A stretch of DNA of 64,000 bases from an uncultured Actinomycetes bacterium (GTDB taxonomy: Bacteria > Actinomycetota > Acidimicrobiia > Acidimicrobiales > RAAP-2). The DNA is taken from NCBI GenBank assembly GCA_903871335.1, contig CAIQGE010000010.1, forward strand, positions 62,001 to 126,000. The letters run 5' to 3'. Position numbers and translations under genes: made by a program. Positions 8,600-25,099 of the stretch are shown here, piece by piece (the stretch's first letter is position 1; each line of letters opens with the position of its first letter). The notes below the pieces were generated by a model, which saw only the letters and a program-made list of their open reading frames with translations, made no database searches and was not told the DNA's origin.

Positions 8600-9418
8600 T
8601 CACAAGTTGGCGGGCTTCACCGGGCGCACGACGATGTCCGTGACGTCCACGCTGACGGGCTGACCGACCGCGAAGAGCACCGCCTCGGCGATGTCCTCGG
8701 GACGAATCATGATCTCCGACAGAGCCGCTTGCGCGCTCACGAGCACCTCGTCAGGCAAACGCTCACCGGGCACGACCGGGACGTCGATACCCGACATCGC
8801 GACCAGTCCCGCCAAGATGGCCGGATCCACGTTGCGGCCAATGTTCGTAGCGACCAGTCCCGGCATCACGGAGGTGATCTTGATCGGGTCATTGACCAGT
8901 TCTTGGCGCAAGGTGTTGCTGATTACATTGACGGCGTGCTTTGTCGCTCCGTAGACACCGGAGTTGGGGTCGAGAGCGGCGACGGACGAGATATTGACAA
9001 TGTGGCCCGGGTGGCCACCCTCGCGCATCGCGACGACGGCCGCCTTCGTTCCCGCCAACAGTGCGAGCACGTTGGTCTCCAACATGTTGCGCCACTGGTC
9101 CACGTCGGCGTCGAGAATCGTGCCGAGATAGGAAACACCGGCGTTGTTCACAAAAATGTCCAAACGTCCCGTGGCGTTGACGGCGGCGTCCACGAGGGAC
9201 TGCACCGTGGACGGATCCCGCAGATCAACGACGAGACCCGTCGCTCGCCCACCGGCGGCGGTGATGCGATCCACGACGTCGGTGACGGCCGTCGCGTCAC
9301 GTCCCGATACAACGACGAAGGCGCCGCTCGCCGCCAACTGTTCAGCGATGGCCCGGCCAATTCCGCTCGACGCGCCCGTGACGACCGCGGACTTGCCCTG
9401 TAGATCTACGTGCGACAT
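8600..9418 (-). CDS. Short-chain dehydrogenase/reductase
   Basis: This is a classical NAD(P)-dependent oxidoreductase with a Rossmann fold. It has the cofactor motif TGASSGIG near residue 14, NNAG at about 91, a catalytic Ser in NISSVAAL, and the YxxxK pair in GVYGATKHAV. The 272-residue length and the C-terminal region match the YdfG/NADP-dependent 3-hydroxy acid or serine dehydrogenase-like SDR group. ATG 9418 follows a G-rich ribosome-binding site (GGGGGGA). It diverges from the dioxygenase gene at 9553. The substrate cannot be deduced. Confidence 0.93.
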   Translation of the reverse strand: MSHVDLQGKSAVVTGASSGIGRAIAEQLAASGAFVVVSGRDATAVTDVVDRITAAGGRATGLVVDLRDPSTVQSLVDAAVNATGRLDIFVNNAGVSYLGTILDADVDQWRNMLETNVLALLAGTKAAVVAMREGGHPGHIVNISSVAALDPNSGVYGATKHAVNVISNTLRQELVNDPIKITSVMPGLVATNIGRNVDPAILAGLVAMSGIDVPVVPGERLPDEVLVSAQAALSEIMIRPEDIAEAVLFAVGQPVSVDVTDIVVRPVKPANL

Positions 9419-9552: not shown

Positions 9553-10308
9553 GTGGCCTCTCTCACGGATTCCCAACATTCGCACTACCTCGAGACGGGT
9601 TGGCTCCTTCTCGACGACGTCACCGGCGTGAGCGTCGAAACCATGCAGAACGAGGTCGACGCCATCGCGCGTTGGCCCGAGGACGGCGAGTGGATGCACC
9701 ATTTCGAAATGACCGACCGGGGTCGTCAGCTCGCGCGGACCGAGAATTTCGTTCCCTTCAGCCCGATCATGAACACATTGCTGCGCCAGTCAGCCATCGC
9801 GGACGTAGCGGGCGAACTTCTCGACGACGACGCGTTCTTGTACAAGGAGAAGATCAACTACAAGCTCGTCGGGGGTGCCGGATTCTCACCGCACCAGGAC
9901 AAGCCCGCCTACCCGTTCGTCGATCAGGTGCTCTCGGTCATGGTGGCCGTTGACGACGCGACGGTCGAGAACGGTTGTCTGTTCGTCGCCAGTGCTCGTC
10001 ACGATCGCCTGCTGCCGCAGGACGAGCGTGGGTGCCTGACGAGTGAGGTCGTCGCAGAACTGCAGTGGCAACCGGTCGAGTTGCGAGCCGGCCAAACCCT
10101 ATTTTTCCACGCACTGACGCCGCACCGCAGTGGACCGAACCTGTCGCGTCGTGATCGCCGCGCTCTCTATCCCACCTATAACGGTGCGAGCGAGGGAGAT
10201 TTGCGCGAGGCCTACTACCGCGCCAAGATCGAAGCGTTCGCCGACGCGCCGACCGGTGACCGCGCTCGCATTTCTCTCATCGGCGACTTTGAAGGACGAC
10301 CCGCGTGA
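9553..10308 (+). CDS. PhyH-family Fe(II)/2-oxoglutarate dioxygenase, PhnY/TmpA-like
   Basis: The 251-residue protein is a phytanoyl-CoA-dioxygenase-type oxygenase. The metal site is HQD (His114, Asp116) with distal His191 in TPHRSGPN, followed by an Arg (about 203) for 2-oxoglutarate. The context FLYKEKINYKLVGGAGFSPH and the PTYNGASEGDLR tail resemble the phosphonate alpha-hydroxylases PhnY/TmpA, which make the 1-hydroxy derivative of 2-aminoethyl- or trimethylaminoethyl-phosphonate. The next gene, joined by a GTGA overlap, encodes the matching HD oxygenase, which supports this reading. Substrate choice between the two phosphonates, or a close relative, is not decided by the sequence. Confidence 0.85.
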   Translation: MASLTDSQHSHYLETGWLLLDDVTGVSVETMQNEVDAIARWPEDGEWMHHFEMTDRGRQLARTENFVPFSPIMNTLLRQSAIADVAGELLDDDAFLYKEKINYKLVGGAGFSPHQDKPAYPFVDQVLSVMVAVDDATVENGCLFVASARHDRLLPQDERGCLTSEVVAELQWQPVELRAGQTLFFHALTPHRSGPNLSRRDRRALYPTYNGASEGDLREAYYRAKIEAFADAPTGDRARISLIGDFEGRPA

Positions 10309-10874
10309 GCCCCCTCGAAACCCCAACGTCAGTAGATGAGATCTTCGCCCTGTTCGCGCTGAACGGAACAAAGAGCTATGGCGAAGGCGTCGACATGACC
10401 ACGCACGCCATTCAGACAGCGGTCTTCGCCCAACGTGATGGGGCGAGCGACGCTCTCGTGGCGGCGTCACTTCTGCACGACATTGGGCACCTGATGGCGG
10501 ACCTGCAGGGAACCGAACGGTTCGACCTCGAAGTCGATGACGATGATCACGAGGCCCTGGGCGGACGTGTGCTCTCACCCATCTTCGGACCGCGCGTCGC
10601 ACAACCGGTGGCCCTCCACGTGACCGCCAAGAGATGGCACTGCACCGTGGAGCCGAGTTACCACGACGGACTTTCGCCCACTTCGCAGGCAACTCTGAAA
10701 GCGCAAGGCGGACTTCTCAATTCCGAAGAGGTCGCTCGCTTCGAAGCGCACCCGGGATTCGACGATGCCGTCGCGCTGCGCACGTACGACGATCGCGGCA
10801 AGGACCCCGACATGGAGACGCCGTCCTTGGAGTCCTTCCGTCCGCTCCTCGAGAAGCTCGCGGCTAGTCGCTGA
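10305..10874 (+). CDS. HD-domain mixed-valent diiron oxygenase, PhnZ/TmpB-like
   Basis: This protein probably cleaves the C-P bond of an alpha-hydroxyphosphonate oxidatively, releasing phosphate. The HD ligands are visible: His34, His58-Asp59 in LLHDIGHL, His82, His105 and an Asp at 162/163. Tyr25 and Glu27 (SYGEG) match the substrate-gating Tyr/Glu pair known from PhnZ. The segment LHVTAKRWHC and the QGGLLNSEE and LRTYDD patterns also fit that family. At 189 residues it has the family length. GTG 10305 overlaps the PhyH stop. The last 11 bp overlap convergent pheA. Confidence 0.88.
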   Translation: MSPLETPTSVDEIFALFALNGTKSYGEGVDMTTHAIQTAVFAQRDGASDALVAASLLHDIGHLMADLQGTERFDLEVDDDDHEALGGRVLSPIFGPRVAQPVALHVTAKRWHCTVEPSYHDGLSPTSQATLKAQGGLLNSEEVARFEAHPGFDDAVALRTYDDRGKDPDMETPSLESFRPLLEKLAASR

Positions 10875-11784
10875 CTTTCGAGCGAATCTCGTGAATCCAC
10901 GCCCGCGCTGACGCGCGAGCCGCTCCCACTTCGTCGCGTCGGGTGACGGCCGCTTCGCCGGTGACGGGGTAGGAGCCGAGAAACTTCACGCGCGCCAAGT
11001 GCGCTTGTAGATCCGCGAGACAGTCGGCGATCACGTCGTCGGCGACGTGTCCGTCGAACTCGATCACGAAGCAGTAGTCACCGAGCCCGCGCTTGGTGGG
11101 ACGAGATTCCAATTTGGTGAGGTTCAAGTCACGCGCCGCGAAGCGACCGAGAATGCCGTAGAGGGAGCCGGGTCGGTCGGCGTCTTGGAAGCAGACAATC
11201 GAGGTGCGGTCGTGCCCCGTGGGACGCGGCACGCGACTGCGCCCCACGACGACGAATCGCGTTTCGTTGTCGTCGGCGTCTTCAACGTCCTCGGCGAGAA
11301 TGTGGAGCCCGTACGTGGACGCCGCCGCCCGCGACGCCAGAGCCGCGACCGGTGCGTCACTCTGGGACACGGCCCGCGCGGCGTCGGCCGTGGAGCCGAC
11401 ATTCGCCACCTGAACGCCCGGCAGCGAGCTCATGAACTTGCGGCACTGGGCCAAGGCGTGCGAATAGCTCCACACTTCGGTCACTTCGTCGAGCGCCACG
11501 CCATCTCGAGCCATGAGGTGTAAACGAATGGGAATCACGATCTCGCGTTCGATAAACAGATCGTGGTCGAACAACAGCCCGTCAATGGTGGCCGACACCG
11601 TTCCCTCGATCGCGTTCTCAATCGGCACCACACCGACTTCAACGTCCCCGTTCGCCACTGCGTCGAGCACGTCGGCAATCGTGGGGAAAGGAATCGCGTC
11701 GAGGTCGTCACCCAGGGTGGCGACGGCCTCGTGGGTAAAGGTGCCCACCGGGCCGAAAAAACCCACGCGGCGCACGGTGCTCAT
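10864..11784 (-). CDS. pheA: Prephenate dehydratase
   Basis: The enzyme converts prephenate to phenylpyruvate in phenylalanine synthesis. The 306-residue protein has the catalytic domain (FFGPVGTFTHEA at the N-terminus, VPIENAIEGTV near residue 56, and the conserved Thr-Arg-Phe of DDNETRFVVVG) and then an ACT regulatory domain with the phenylalanine-binding ESRP motif (LTKLESRP). It lacks a chorismate mutase part, the usual state in Actinobacteria. ATG 11784 is preceded by TAACAT and a 6-nt gap (11785-11796), which suggests a leaderless transcript. Confidence 0.96.
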   Translation of the reverse strand: MSTVRRVGFFGPVGTFTHEAVATLGDDLDAIPFPTIADVLDAVANGDVEVGVVPIENAIEGTVSATIDGLLFDHDLFIEREIVIPIRLHLMARDGVALDEVTEVWSYSHALAQCRKFMSSLPGVQVANVGSTADAARAVSQSDAPVAALASRAAASTYGLHILAEDVEDADDNETRFVVVGRSRVPRPTGHDRTSIVCFQDADRPGSLYGILGRFAARDLNLTKLESRPTKRGLGDYCFVIEFDGHVADDVIADCLADLQAHLARVKFLGSYPVTGEAAVTRRDEVGAARASARAWIHEIRSKVSD

Positions 11785-17994: not shown

Positions 17995-18669
17995 CTAAAG
18001 ATGGAGGAGTTCCTCGAGATCATCGAGCAGGAGCGCAAACAGCGCGTCGGCGTCTCGCACCGATCCGACGAAGTGACCGAATAACTCGAAGCTGAGAAAA
18101 CCAAAGATGTCGCTCCACGCCAGAATCGCCCGCGCAGCCACCGGCCGGGGCACATTGGGAATGAACTCTTCGAGGGACTCCCATTCGAGCACCGAAACGT
18201 AGCGAGGATCGACCGGCGCCGGGGGCGTCGGCTGGTCAACGAAGCGCGCCGCCAAGATGGAACCAAGCGCCAGCGTGACACGTGACGCGGCGGCGATGGT
18301 GTCCTGGGGGGCTTGGTAGTTGGGAACCGGTGAGCCGAAAATGAGCGCGTATTCGTGAGGGTGCTCCTTCGCCCACGACCTGATCGCGTGACACGTGGAG
18401 CGCCACCGGTGACCCGTGTCCTCGTGCGCCGCGGCGGCCGCCTCCGCCGCGGCACCCAGCTCGTTATAGGAGTCCAGAATCAAGGCCGTGAGGAGGTCGT
18501 CGCGGGTCGGGAAATACCGGTAGAGCGCCGAGGAGGTTTGATGCATCTCTCGCGCCACTTCGCGTAATGACAGGGCGCTCGCACCCTTCGCGGCGAGCAA
18601 TTCGCGTGCCGTGGACTTAATGCGTTCCATGTTGGCGTTCCGCGTGGCGAGGCGCTTCGGGCTGTCCAT
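17995..18669 (-). CDS. TetR-family transcriptional regulator
   Basis: The 224-residue protein has an N-terminal TetR helix-turn-helix (about residues 14-60; ALSLREVAREMHQTSSALYRYFPTRDDL) and a ligand-binding C-terminal domain of the WHG type. It diverges from the NAD-dependent epimerase gene, and the 111-bp gap between them carries two copies of AGAGCA-N-TGCTCT, good candidates for its own operators. The ligand is unknown. The gene ends just before a different palindrome in front of the DUF4188 gene, which it may or may not also bind. Confidence 0.92.
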   Translation of the reverse strand: MDSPKRLATRNANMERIKSTARELLAAKGASALSLREVAREMHQTSSALYRYFPTRDDLLTALILDSYNELGAAAEAAAAAHEDTGHRWRSTCHAIRSWAKEHPHEYALIFGSPVPNYQAPQDTIAAASRVTLALGSILAARFVDQPTPPAPVDPRYVSVLEWESLEEFIPNVPRPVAARAILAWSDIFGFLSFELFGHFVGSVRDADALFALLLDDLEELLHL

Positions 18670-23638: not shown

Positions 23639-24271
23639 GTGCACTTCGCCACCGAAACACCCGCTCCCGTCCTTCTCACGGCTCGCGTGCGACTTCGACC
23701 CCTCGTCGCGTCTGATCGCGACCAGCACTTCGCGCTCTTCCGTGATCCCGAGACGGTCCGGTATCTCTACGATGAGCCACTCACTGAGGACCGAATCGAC
23801 GAACACATGGTGCGACGTATCCGCACCACGCTGCCGGGCGAGGGTGAATGGATTTCGTACGCCGCGGAGGGTCGCGACGACGGAAGGTACCTGGGTGAAG
23901 TTGCCTTCACGCTCGTGTCCGCGACCCACGGCTACGTGGAAGTGGGATACGTGTTCACGCAGAACGGACGCGGCCACGGACTAGCCACCGAGGCCACCGG
24001 CGCGGTCGTGGACTTCGCCTTTTCTCACTACAACGCTCACCGCGTCGGTGGGCGTTTGGATGCTCGCAATGATCGCTCGGCGCGCGTTCTCGAAAGATTG
24101 GGCTTTCGACGCGAGGCTCATTTCCGAGAAAACGAATTCGTCAAGGGTGAATGGTGTGACGAGCTCGCCTACGCGGTTCTCGCGACCGAGTGGCGTTCGC
24201 GGTTACCGAACGGCCACGAGTGGATCGTCCGCGACGCTGCTCTCGACACCGGAGATTCCCACGGGGCGTGA
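23639..24271 (+). CDS. RimJ/RimL-type GNAT acetyltransferase
   Basis: The 210-residue protein has the RimJ/RimL pattern: LLTARVRLRPLVASDRDQHFAL at the N-terminus, GEVAFTLVSATHGYVEVGYVF, the CoA loop QNGRGHGLATEA, NAHRVGGRLDARNDRSARVLERLGF and a final Trp-rich tail. Proteins like this acetylate protein N-termini or antibiotics; the target is unknown. GTG 23639 is the first codon of the protein-like sequence. The last 69 bp overlap the convergent TauD gene. Confidence 0.9.
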   Translation: MHFATETPAPVLLTARVRLRPLVASDRDQHFALFRDPETVRYLYDEPLTEDRIDEHMVRRIRTTLPGEGEWISYAAEGRDDGRYLGEVAFTLVSATHGYVEVGYVFTQNGRGHGLATEATGAVVDFAFSHYNAHRVGGRLDARNDRSARVLERLGFRREAHFRENEFVKGEWCDELAYAVLATEWRSRLPNGHEWIVRDAALDTGDSHGA

Positions 24272-25099
24272 TCCGCGCAACGTGATGCGACGCATGCGCC
24301 GCCCCGCGGTGGCGTAATCGTCAGTCGCGTAGTGCAGAGTCGCCCGGTTGTCCCACATCACGACGTCGCCGAGTTGCCACCGGTGCCGCAAGGTGAGTTC
24401 CGGCTGCGACAAGTGTTCATAGAGGAGTCGTAGTAGGTGGTCACTCTCGATGCGTGAGAGATCTACCAGGTGCGTCGTAAATCCGGGGTTCACGAACAAG
24501 GAAGGCTTGCCCGTCGACGGGTGCACGCGCACCACGGGGTGTAGGACGGGCGGCACTTTGGCCGCTTCCTCGAACAAGTACTGCGCGTCGCTGCGACCGA
24601 GCGCGGTGTCAAAGGGTTCCCCCCAAAACGCGAGCGGAGAAATACGGTGTACGGCCACGAGCTGGTCGACGGCGTCGCGTAGCGGTGCCGCGAGTCGTGC
24701 GTAGGCGGTACGCGCGTCGCACCACAACGTGTCGCCGCCGTACGGGGGCACTTCGTCGGCGACGAGCACGGACGCCGCGGGTGGCGTCTCGACAAAGGTG
24801 ACGTCGGTGTGCCACCGGGCGTTCTTCCCGCCCTGCTGTGCGTTGAGTTCCAGGATCTCGGGGAAATCGGGATGGCCGGGGACAACGGGGTGTGCCGGCG
24901 TCACCTCACCCATCAGTCGCGCGACGCGCGACTGCTCGGCGTGCGTGAGGAACTGATCCCGAAAGACGAGAACAAGATGCTCTTCCAGCACGTTCATCAG
25001 CCACGCCCCGTCCTCGACGTCGCGCAACAACACGCCGCGAACCTCAGCGCCAAAGGTGCCGGTGATGGGAGTGATGTCCGGGGTGGGCGTCGTGGTCAT
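24203..25099 (-). CDS. TauD/TfdA-family 2-oxoglutarate dioxygenase
   Basis: The 298-residue protein has the TauD motifs: the WHTDVTF HxD metal pair near residue 97, and a distal His in WDNRATLHYATDDY with the 2-OG Arg in GRRMRRITLRG. RHRWQLGDVVMWDN is also typical. Substrates in this family include taurine, alkylsulfates and 2,4-D-like compounds; no nearby sulfonate gene narrows this. ATG 25099 has GGGAGA upstream. Residues after the RRMRRITLRG motif are an extension overlapping the GNAT gene. Confidence 0.93.
   Translation of the reverse strand: MTTTPTPDITPITGTFGAEVRGVLLRDVEDGAWLMNVLEEHLVLVFRDQFLTHAEQSRVARLMGEVTPAHPVVPGHPDFPEILELNAQQGGKNARWHTDVTFVETPPAASVLVADEVPPYGGDTLWCDARTAYARLAAPLRDAVDQLVAVHRISPLAFWGEPFDTALGRSDAQYLFEEAAKVPPVLHPVVRVHPSTGKPSLFVNPGFTTHLVDLSRIESDHLLRLLYEHLSQPELTLRHRWQLGDVVMWDNRATLHYATDDYATAGRRMRRITLRGSRPVGISGVESSVADDPLVAVR

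Follow-up and report, generated by a model that had tools for sequence, protein, structure and literature searches.

The window analysed here, the whole stretch of 64,000 nucleotides, carries a pair of overlapping oxygenase genes on the forward strand. The upstream gene (9553..10308, 251 aa, GTG start) encodes a PhyH-family 2-oxoglutarate/Fe(II) oxygenase and the downstream gene (10305..10874, 189 aa, GTG start) an HD-domain diiron oxygenase, which we propose to act as first and second enzyme, respectively. The 4 bp shared by the two genes read GTGA in the sequence (10305..10308), which suggests that their translation may be coupled. Both ORFs, their coordinates and the overlap bear out the preliminary description of this DNA, which had reported a PhyH dioxygenase and an HD diiron oxygenase overlapping by 4 bp. 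Upstream of the pair, a divergent SDR gene (8600-9418, reverse strand) lies 134 bp away, and downstream the HD gene shares its last stretch (10864-10874) with a convergent prephenate dehydratase gene (10864-11784, reverse strand). Judged by Pfam and NCBIfam profiles, neither of these looks phosphonate-linked. The other genes called near the pair encode a Fic protein, TypA (named by eye) and a PLP decarboxylase; none of the neighbours called in the window is a gene for a phosphonate transporter, an aminotransferase or C-P metabolism, in line with the earlier statement. The nearest regulator-like ORF (17995-18669) is TetR-like by eye only. A TauD-family dioxygenase gene (24203-25099, reverse strand; Pfam 221.8 bits) is found 14 kb from the pair, and no HD gene was seen adjoining it.

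The PhyH protein scores 88.9 bits against Pfam PhyH (cut-off 22) and is the sole PhyH match in this genome. Together with this match, an HxD...H triad places it among the PhyH-type Fe(II)/2OG oxygenases. The triad consists of His114 and Asp116 in the motif His114-Gln-Asp116 (9892..9900, forward strand, as are all residue positions below) and of His191 (10123..10125) as third proposed iron ligand, and it is kept in all 41 paired PhyH rows. We take these residues to be the iron ligands from general knowledge of the family. Arg202-Arg203 (10156..10161), one of which is proposed to bind 2-oxoglutarate, are each also present in 41/41 rows. The top NCBIfam model is methylphosphonate hydroxylase NF052437, with 238.2 bits over residues 3-251, below its cut-off of 500. 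On the same model, the range is 204-277 for five PhyH proteins that are paired in relatives and 130-172 for three unpaired ones from plasmids. The predicted PhyH structure had a pLDDT of 36.8, based on a three-row alignment, and was left out of the structural comparison.

The PhnZ/TmpB group is marked by an H...HD...H...H...D diiron motif, as described in the accessible passages of PMC8177086. All six ligands are present in the HD protein, namely His34 (10404..10406), His58-Asp59 (10476..10481), His82 (10548..10550), His105 (10617..10619) and Asp162 (10788..10790). His34 is kept in 100 of 101 rows, the remaining row being a gap, and the others in 101/101. The preliminary description had listed the first five, all of which are kept, and Asp162 is added here as the sixth. 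Furthermore, Lys109, Arg110, Ser127, Gln134, Arg159 and Lys166 agree with PhnZ and TmpB, and at least 100/101 rows keep them. A phmmer search against solved structures gave four matches at E<=0.001, TmpB at 115 bits and three PhnZ sequences at 92-94 bits, and none of the matches at this threshold was MIOX. The AlphaFold model of the protein (pLDDT 89.7) aligns over 175 residues with TmpB (Z 26.1) and with PhnZ (Z 25.8), and MIOX comes next at Z 11.4. The HD protein is not MIOX by closest fold or by closest sequence match, and a grouping with MIOX types, which had been named beforehand as the outcome that would speak against a phosphonate role, did not occur. The best NCBIfam model is TIGR03276 (Phn-HD) with 194.3 bits, under the cut-off of 214.6. 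The methylphosphonate PhnZ1 model NF052439 gives 151.3 bits and the TmpB model NF049941 151.2 bits, both below cut-offs of 300. The top NCBIfam names of both proteins of the pair are phosphonate enzymes, and no characterised subfamily (equivalog) cut-off is reached by either.

The accessible text of PMC8177086 also describes a YxxE loop in the PhnZ/TmpB group, in which Tyr covers the iron as long as no substrate is bound and Glu receives the amino group of the substrate. The window protein has a shorter loop, Tyr25-Gly26-Glu27 (YxE; 10377..10385). The earlier reading of Tyr25/Glu27 as the PhnZ gating pair stands in that both residues align with PhnZ Tyr24 and Glu27, but the loop itself is YxE and not YxxE, with one residue missing. 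Glu27 is kept in 97/101 rows. Among the 40 PhyH-paired HD proteins, 38 have YxE, none has YxxE and two have no recognisable loop. TauD-paired HD proteins show YxE in 21 cases and YxxE in five (L038-L040, L044 and L045, all proteobacterial), and those linked to C-P lyase show YxE in three and YxxE in four. These counts indicate that the short loop is not peculiar to this gene but characterises a large and mainly actinobacterial section of the family. Adding one residue to the loop costs 1.6 bits (window protein) and 5.2 bits (Rhodococcus protein) on the PhnZ1 model, and a TmpB-type protein gains 3.7 bits when one is taken out. On the TmpB model, the same edits act in the opposite direction (+9.4, +7.5 and -9.4 bits). 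The loop-edit scores suggest that the methylphosphonate PhnZ1 model also has a short loop. The short-loop HD clade offers a handle for testing the role of the gating loop in this enzyme family.

Within the order, the HD protein has matches in 178 of 298 genomes at E<=0.001. Only 84 matches, counted by hand, reach at least 60 bits, and many of those under 60 bits are short HD stretches. The 100 other loci compared here comprise 5/7 of one match set, 7/28 plasmid records, 83/84 order matches of at least 60 bits, 4/49 further matching genomes, and the locus L100. The 83 are all such order matches save the window itself, as counted by hand from the listing. Two loci were left out of the counts, L036, which lies at a contig end and whose genome has a PhyH match on another contig, and L035, which is the same stretch as L100. 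The order PhyH-HD is seen in 38 of the 100 other loci and HD-PhyH in two more; with 40/100 loci paired, the pairing is not due to chance. Five of the nine genomes of the genus have a PhnZ-like match (G000, G074, G256, G275 and G293), so the gene is patchy. In three loci (L057:7174-8586, L110:4878-6797 and L113:6269-7927), PhyH and HD lie in one ORF, as bacterial PhnY-PhnZ-like fusions resembling the fungal PhoF. A conserved cluster on Rhodococcus and Dietzia plasmids (L041, L042) combines PhyH-HD with genes for a YaaH-type transporter, a MurR/RpiR regulator, a second 2OG oxygenase, a beta-propeller protein and a protein resembling cobalamin-independent methionine synthase.

In the tree, the window HD protein belongs to a nine-row clade with support 100/99, and its sister is L034, where the pair is flanked by the same SDR, PheA and further neighbours as in the window. 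The contig of L034 is recorded as uncultured actinobacterium isolate AlinenLipids, and records such as this one point to a lake setting for the window's actinobacterium as well. Elsewhere, the pair lies between typA and pheA (L050) or near a GABA-transaminase-family gene (L048, L051). The TmpB clade (100/100) does not include the window HD protein. PhnZ, which forms a long branch and entered the tree with residues 24-183 only, falls outside a 92-row group (96/93) that holds both the window HD protein and the TmpB clade.

Phosphonate-linked neighbours are found in 11 of the 40 PhyH-HD loci, as PehA/PMH-type ester hydrolase genes in nine and PhnD/PhnE transporter genes in two; the other 29 have neither. 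A PehA-type hydrolase gene lies within 1.5 kb in 9/40 PhyH-paired loci vs 0/60 other HD loci (Fisher p 1.4e-4, a value that overstates independence because six of the nine loci come from one family, f53). In these six (L063, L112, L117, L122, L129 and L137), the PehA-type gene is divergent beside PhyH-HD. Two loci of family f45 (L159, L163) have the same-strand order PehA-HD-PhyH, and their HD proteins have no recognisable gating loop. The ninth, L100 (G299), comes from a close relative and is a same-strand run of seven genes for PhyH, HD, a PehA-type hydrolase, a solute-binding protein, two permeases and an ATPase, with 68% (PhyH) and 61% (HD) identity to the window pair. This stretch is the same as contig CAIKFN010000037.1, and its hydrolase and ATPase were scored in L035. 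The ATPase scores best on PhnT2 and the binding protein weakly on PhnS. On NF045661, the PehA-type hydrolases of two relatives score 381 and 378 (cut-off 900). PhnD and PhnE adjoin the pair in L113, whose PhnD gives 153 bits on Pfam, and in L132. In the same genus as the window, the HD gene of L052 has no PhyH gene beside it, and a PhnX-like gene and a transporter of the L100 kind lie convergent to it. HD relatives adjoin C-P lyase, PhnD/PhnE or PehA-type genes, which provides the phosphonate link that the window itself lacks. Related bacteria keep the pair beside an enzyme that is likely to free phosphonates from esters.

The genome itself (2.23 Mb, 97.5% complete) encodes an orthologue of the PehA-type hydrolase on another contig (C25:122417-123847), with 61% identity to the L035/L100 hydrolase. 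Its best matches among solved structures are 4UPH, a sulfatase of this group, at 343 bits and three phosphonate monoester hydrolase entries (PDB 2W8S, 2VQR and 4UPK) at 250-232 bits; choline sulfatase scores 124 bits. By eye, the domain starts directly without a visible signal peptide, and the enzyme is therefore taken as cytoplasmic. On the same contig (L099:8971-11357), the hydrolase gene overlaps an upstream LipP1-like esterase gene by 4 bp, and the same kind of esterase/hydrolase gene overlap is seen in L107 and L109. Three members of the genus (G110, G142 and G168) have the hydrolase without the pair, so that co-occurrence of pair and hydrolase is weak. A formate-tetrahydrofolate ligase is encoded in this genome. 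The C-P lyase marker PhnJ was not found in it, in a search whose control matched in E. coli; nor was a phosphonate transporter, with no PhnD over the cut-off, or a relative of the L052 binding protein, in a search run without positive control. Three candidates in this genome were rejected: the PEP mutase match reads by eye as ketopantoate hydroxymethyltransferase, the PhnD candidate is NMT1-like, and the PhnX-like protein reaches 22 bits against a cut-off of 218.9.

Four versions of the oxidative pathway, for AEP, methylphosphonate, trimethyl-AEP and PhoF, are on record in the accessible text of PMC10574752. The methylphosphonate PhnY-PhnZ1 of Gimesia maris and Prochlorococcus (PMC6581173, accessible passages) shares the PhyH + HD pairing and gives the best NCBIfam model for our PhyH protein. 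However, the window pair is far below the NF052437 and NF052439 cut-offs and has no adjoining transporter, and by these NCBIfam models the HD protein is no closer to PhnZ1 than to TmpB. The AEP enzymes PhnY*/PhnZ (HF130_AEPn_1; PDB 4MLM, 4MLN, 4N6W and 4N71), compared for the PhnZ half only, resemble the window HD protein in fold and active site (33-34% identity, Z 24-25.8), but differ in the YxxE loop and stand apart in the tree. TmpA/TmpB of Leisingera caerulea (PDB 6NPA) likewise resembles it in both respects (36% identity, Z 26.1), whereas the TmpB-type genes examined have partners of the TauD and not the PhyH family, and TmpB has the YxxE loop and belongs to a separate clade. PhoF, compared by its description in PMC10574752 (accessible text), has the same two domains, which are fused as in L057, L110 and L113, while the window has two separate overlapping genes. 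The Phn-HD proteins of C-P lyase operons (TIGR03276) provide the top HD model, but the score is below the cut-off and the genome lacks the C-P lyase marker. As for PehA/PMH, the C25 hydrolase is similar to the solved enzymes, but its gene does not adjoin the pair in this genome. The pair is a little-studied relative of the known enzyme pairs, very probably phosphonate-degrading. Of the preliminary proposal of a PhnY/TmpA-PhnZ/TmpB-like operon, the oxidative phosphonate part is well supported by the closest solved structures, by the NCBIfam names and by the neighbours of the pair in relatives, while the genes are not a TmpA/TmpB pair and not necessarily an AEP PhnY/PhnZ pair.

Family, active sites, pairing and the phosphonate-linked context in relatives can be read from the sequences, and from these we infer which reactions the pair catalyses and on what substrate, what the hydrolase does and how uptake proceeds. 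We estimate a probability of about three in four that the pair carries out PhnY/PhnZ-like oxidative C-P cleavage, a figure that applies to some phosphonate and not to a given substrate. Weighing against this reading are the equivalog cut-offs that neither protein reaches, the 29 paired loci with neither kind of neighbour, the origin of six of the nine hydrolase-linked loci in one family, the genus members that have the hydrolase but lack the pair, and the negative search for a phosphonate transporter in this genome. The PhyH protein would hydroxylate the carbon next to the phosphorus of a small phosphonate with O2, 2-oxoglutarate and Fe(II), and the HD diiron protein would then use O2 to break the C-P bond in the resulting 1-hydroxyphosphonate, which would yield phosphate and a carboxylate. 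With methylphosphonate, the products would be phosphate and formate and no methane. The PehA-type hydrolase, whose gene lies on another contig of this genome, might release the methylphosphonate intracellularly from an ester. The substrate ranking is a matter of judgement, and methylphosphonate comes first, at somewhat less than even odds, based on the PhyH model, the loop and the formate ligase. The nearly equal HD scores on the methylphosphonate and TmpB models count against it.

Second in rank, at roughly one in four, is 2-aminoethylphosphonate or another aminophosphonate, which the pair would convert in the manner of the original PhnY*/PhnZ, with glycine and phosphate as products in the case of 2-aminoethylphosphonate; another compound takes the remainder. 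Glu27 holds the amino group in PhnZ and its conservation here favours an aminophosphonate, as do the transporters beside the pair in L100 and beside the HD gene in L052, which are of a type named for 2-aminoethylphosphonate, and the PhnX-like gene near an HD gene of the genus. Nevertheless, the best PhyH model is a methylphosphonate hydroxylase, the loop is shorter than that of PhnZ and the HD protein is apart from PhnZ in the tree, so that the methylphosphonate type is slightly better supported than the AEP type.

That the PhyH and HD folds have been reused for the oxidative cleavage of a non-phosphonate would fit the window neighbours and the plasmid pairs, with their methionine-synthase-like gene, second 2OG oxygenase and YaaH-type transporter. 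We consider this improbable, since all PhnZ active-site positions checked are kept and HD relatives adjoin C-P lyase, PhnD/PhnE or PehA-type genes. Far less probable still is a MIOX-type oxygenase or HD phosphohydrolase placed beside PhyH by chance. The HD and PhyH superfamilies are indeed large, and the pair is flanked by unrelated genes, but the Z score of MIOX is less than half those of TmpB and PhnZ, 40 of the 100 other loci are paired, and three loci fuse PhyH and HD in a single ORF.

If oxidative cleavage of a phosphonate by this pair is correct, freshwater actinobacteria have an O2-dependent, methane-free route from phosphonate to phosphate. In the accessible passages of PMC10734540, methylphosphonate use in a lake was followed through phnJ carriers and phnJ was reported in lake Ilumatobacteraceae, and these passages contain no 'PhnZ'. 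As the present genome has no phnJ, phnJ-based counts would miss such phosphonate use. The link to the hydrolase suggests how esterified phosphonates could be reached. Alkaline-phosphatase-like enzymes have been postulated for this, and phosphonate monoester hydrolase is mentioned, in the accessible text of PMC5649143; among the literature matches listed, from which subscription papers were mostly out of scope, nothing joined PhnZ with 'phosphonate monoester hydrolase'. We tentatively suggest, as a possibility we rate well below even, a widespread actinobacterial module for ester salvage, in which a cytoplasmic PehA/PMH hydrolase would free methylphosphonate or a similar phosphonate from imported esters and the PhyH/short-loop HD pair would oxidise the product, methylphosphonate giving phosphate and formate. 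Such a module would let lake actinobacteria draw on dissolved phosphonate esters with no release of methane, and its short loop might be a gate suited to small substrates.

In L152 and L153, a divergent HD protein with FGE instead of the Tyr loop is encoded beside a PhnT2-type ATPase, permeases and a binding protein. A match to P0002 was also seen in one phage record.
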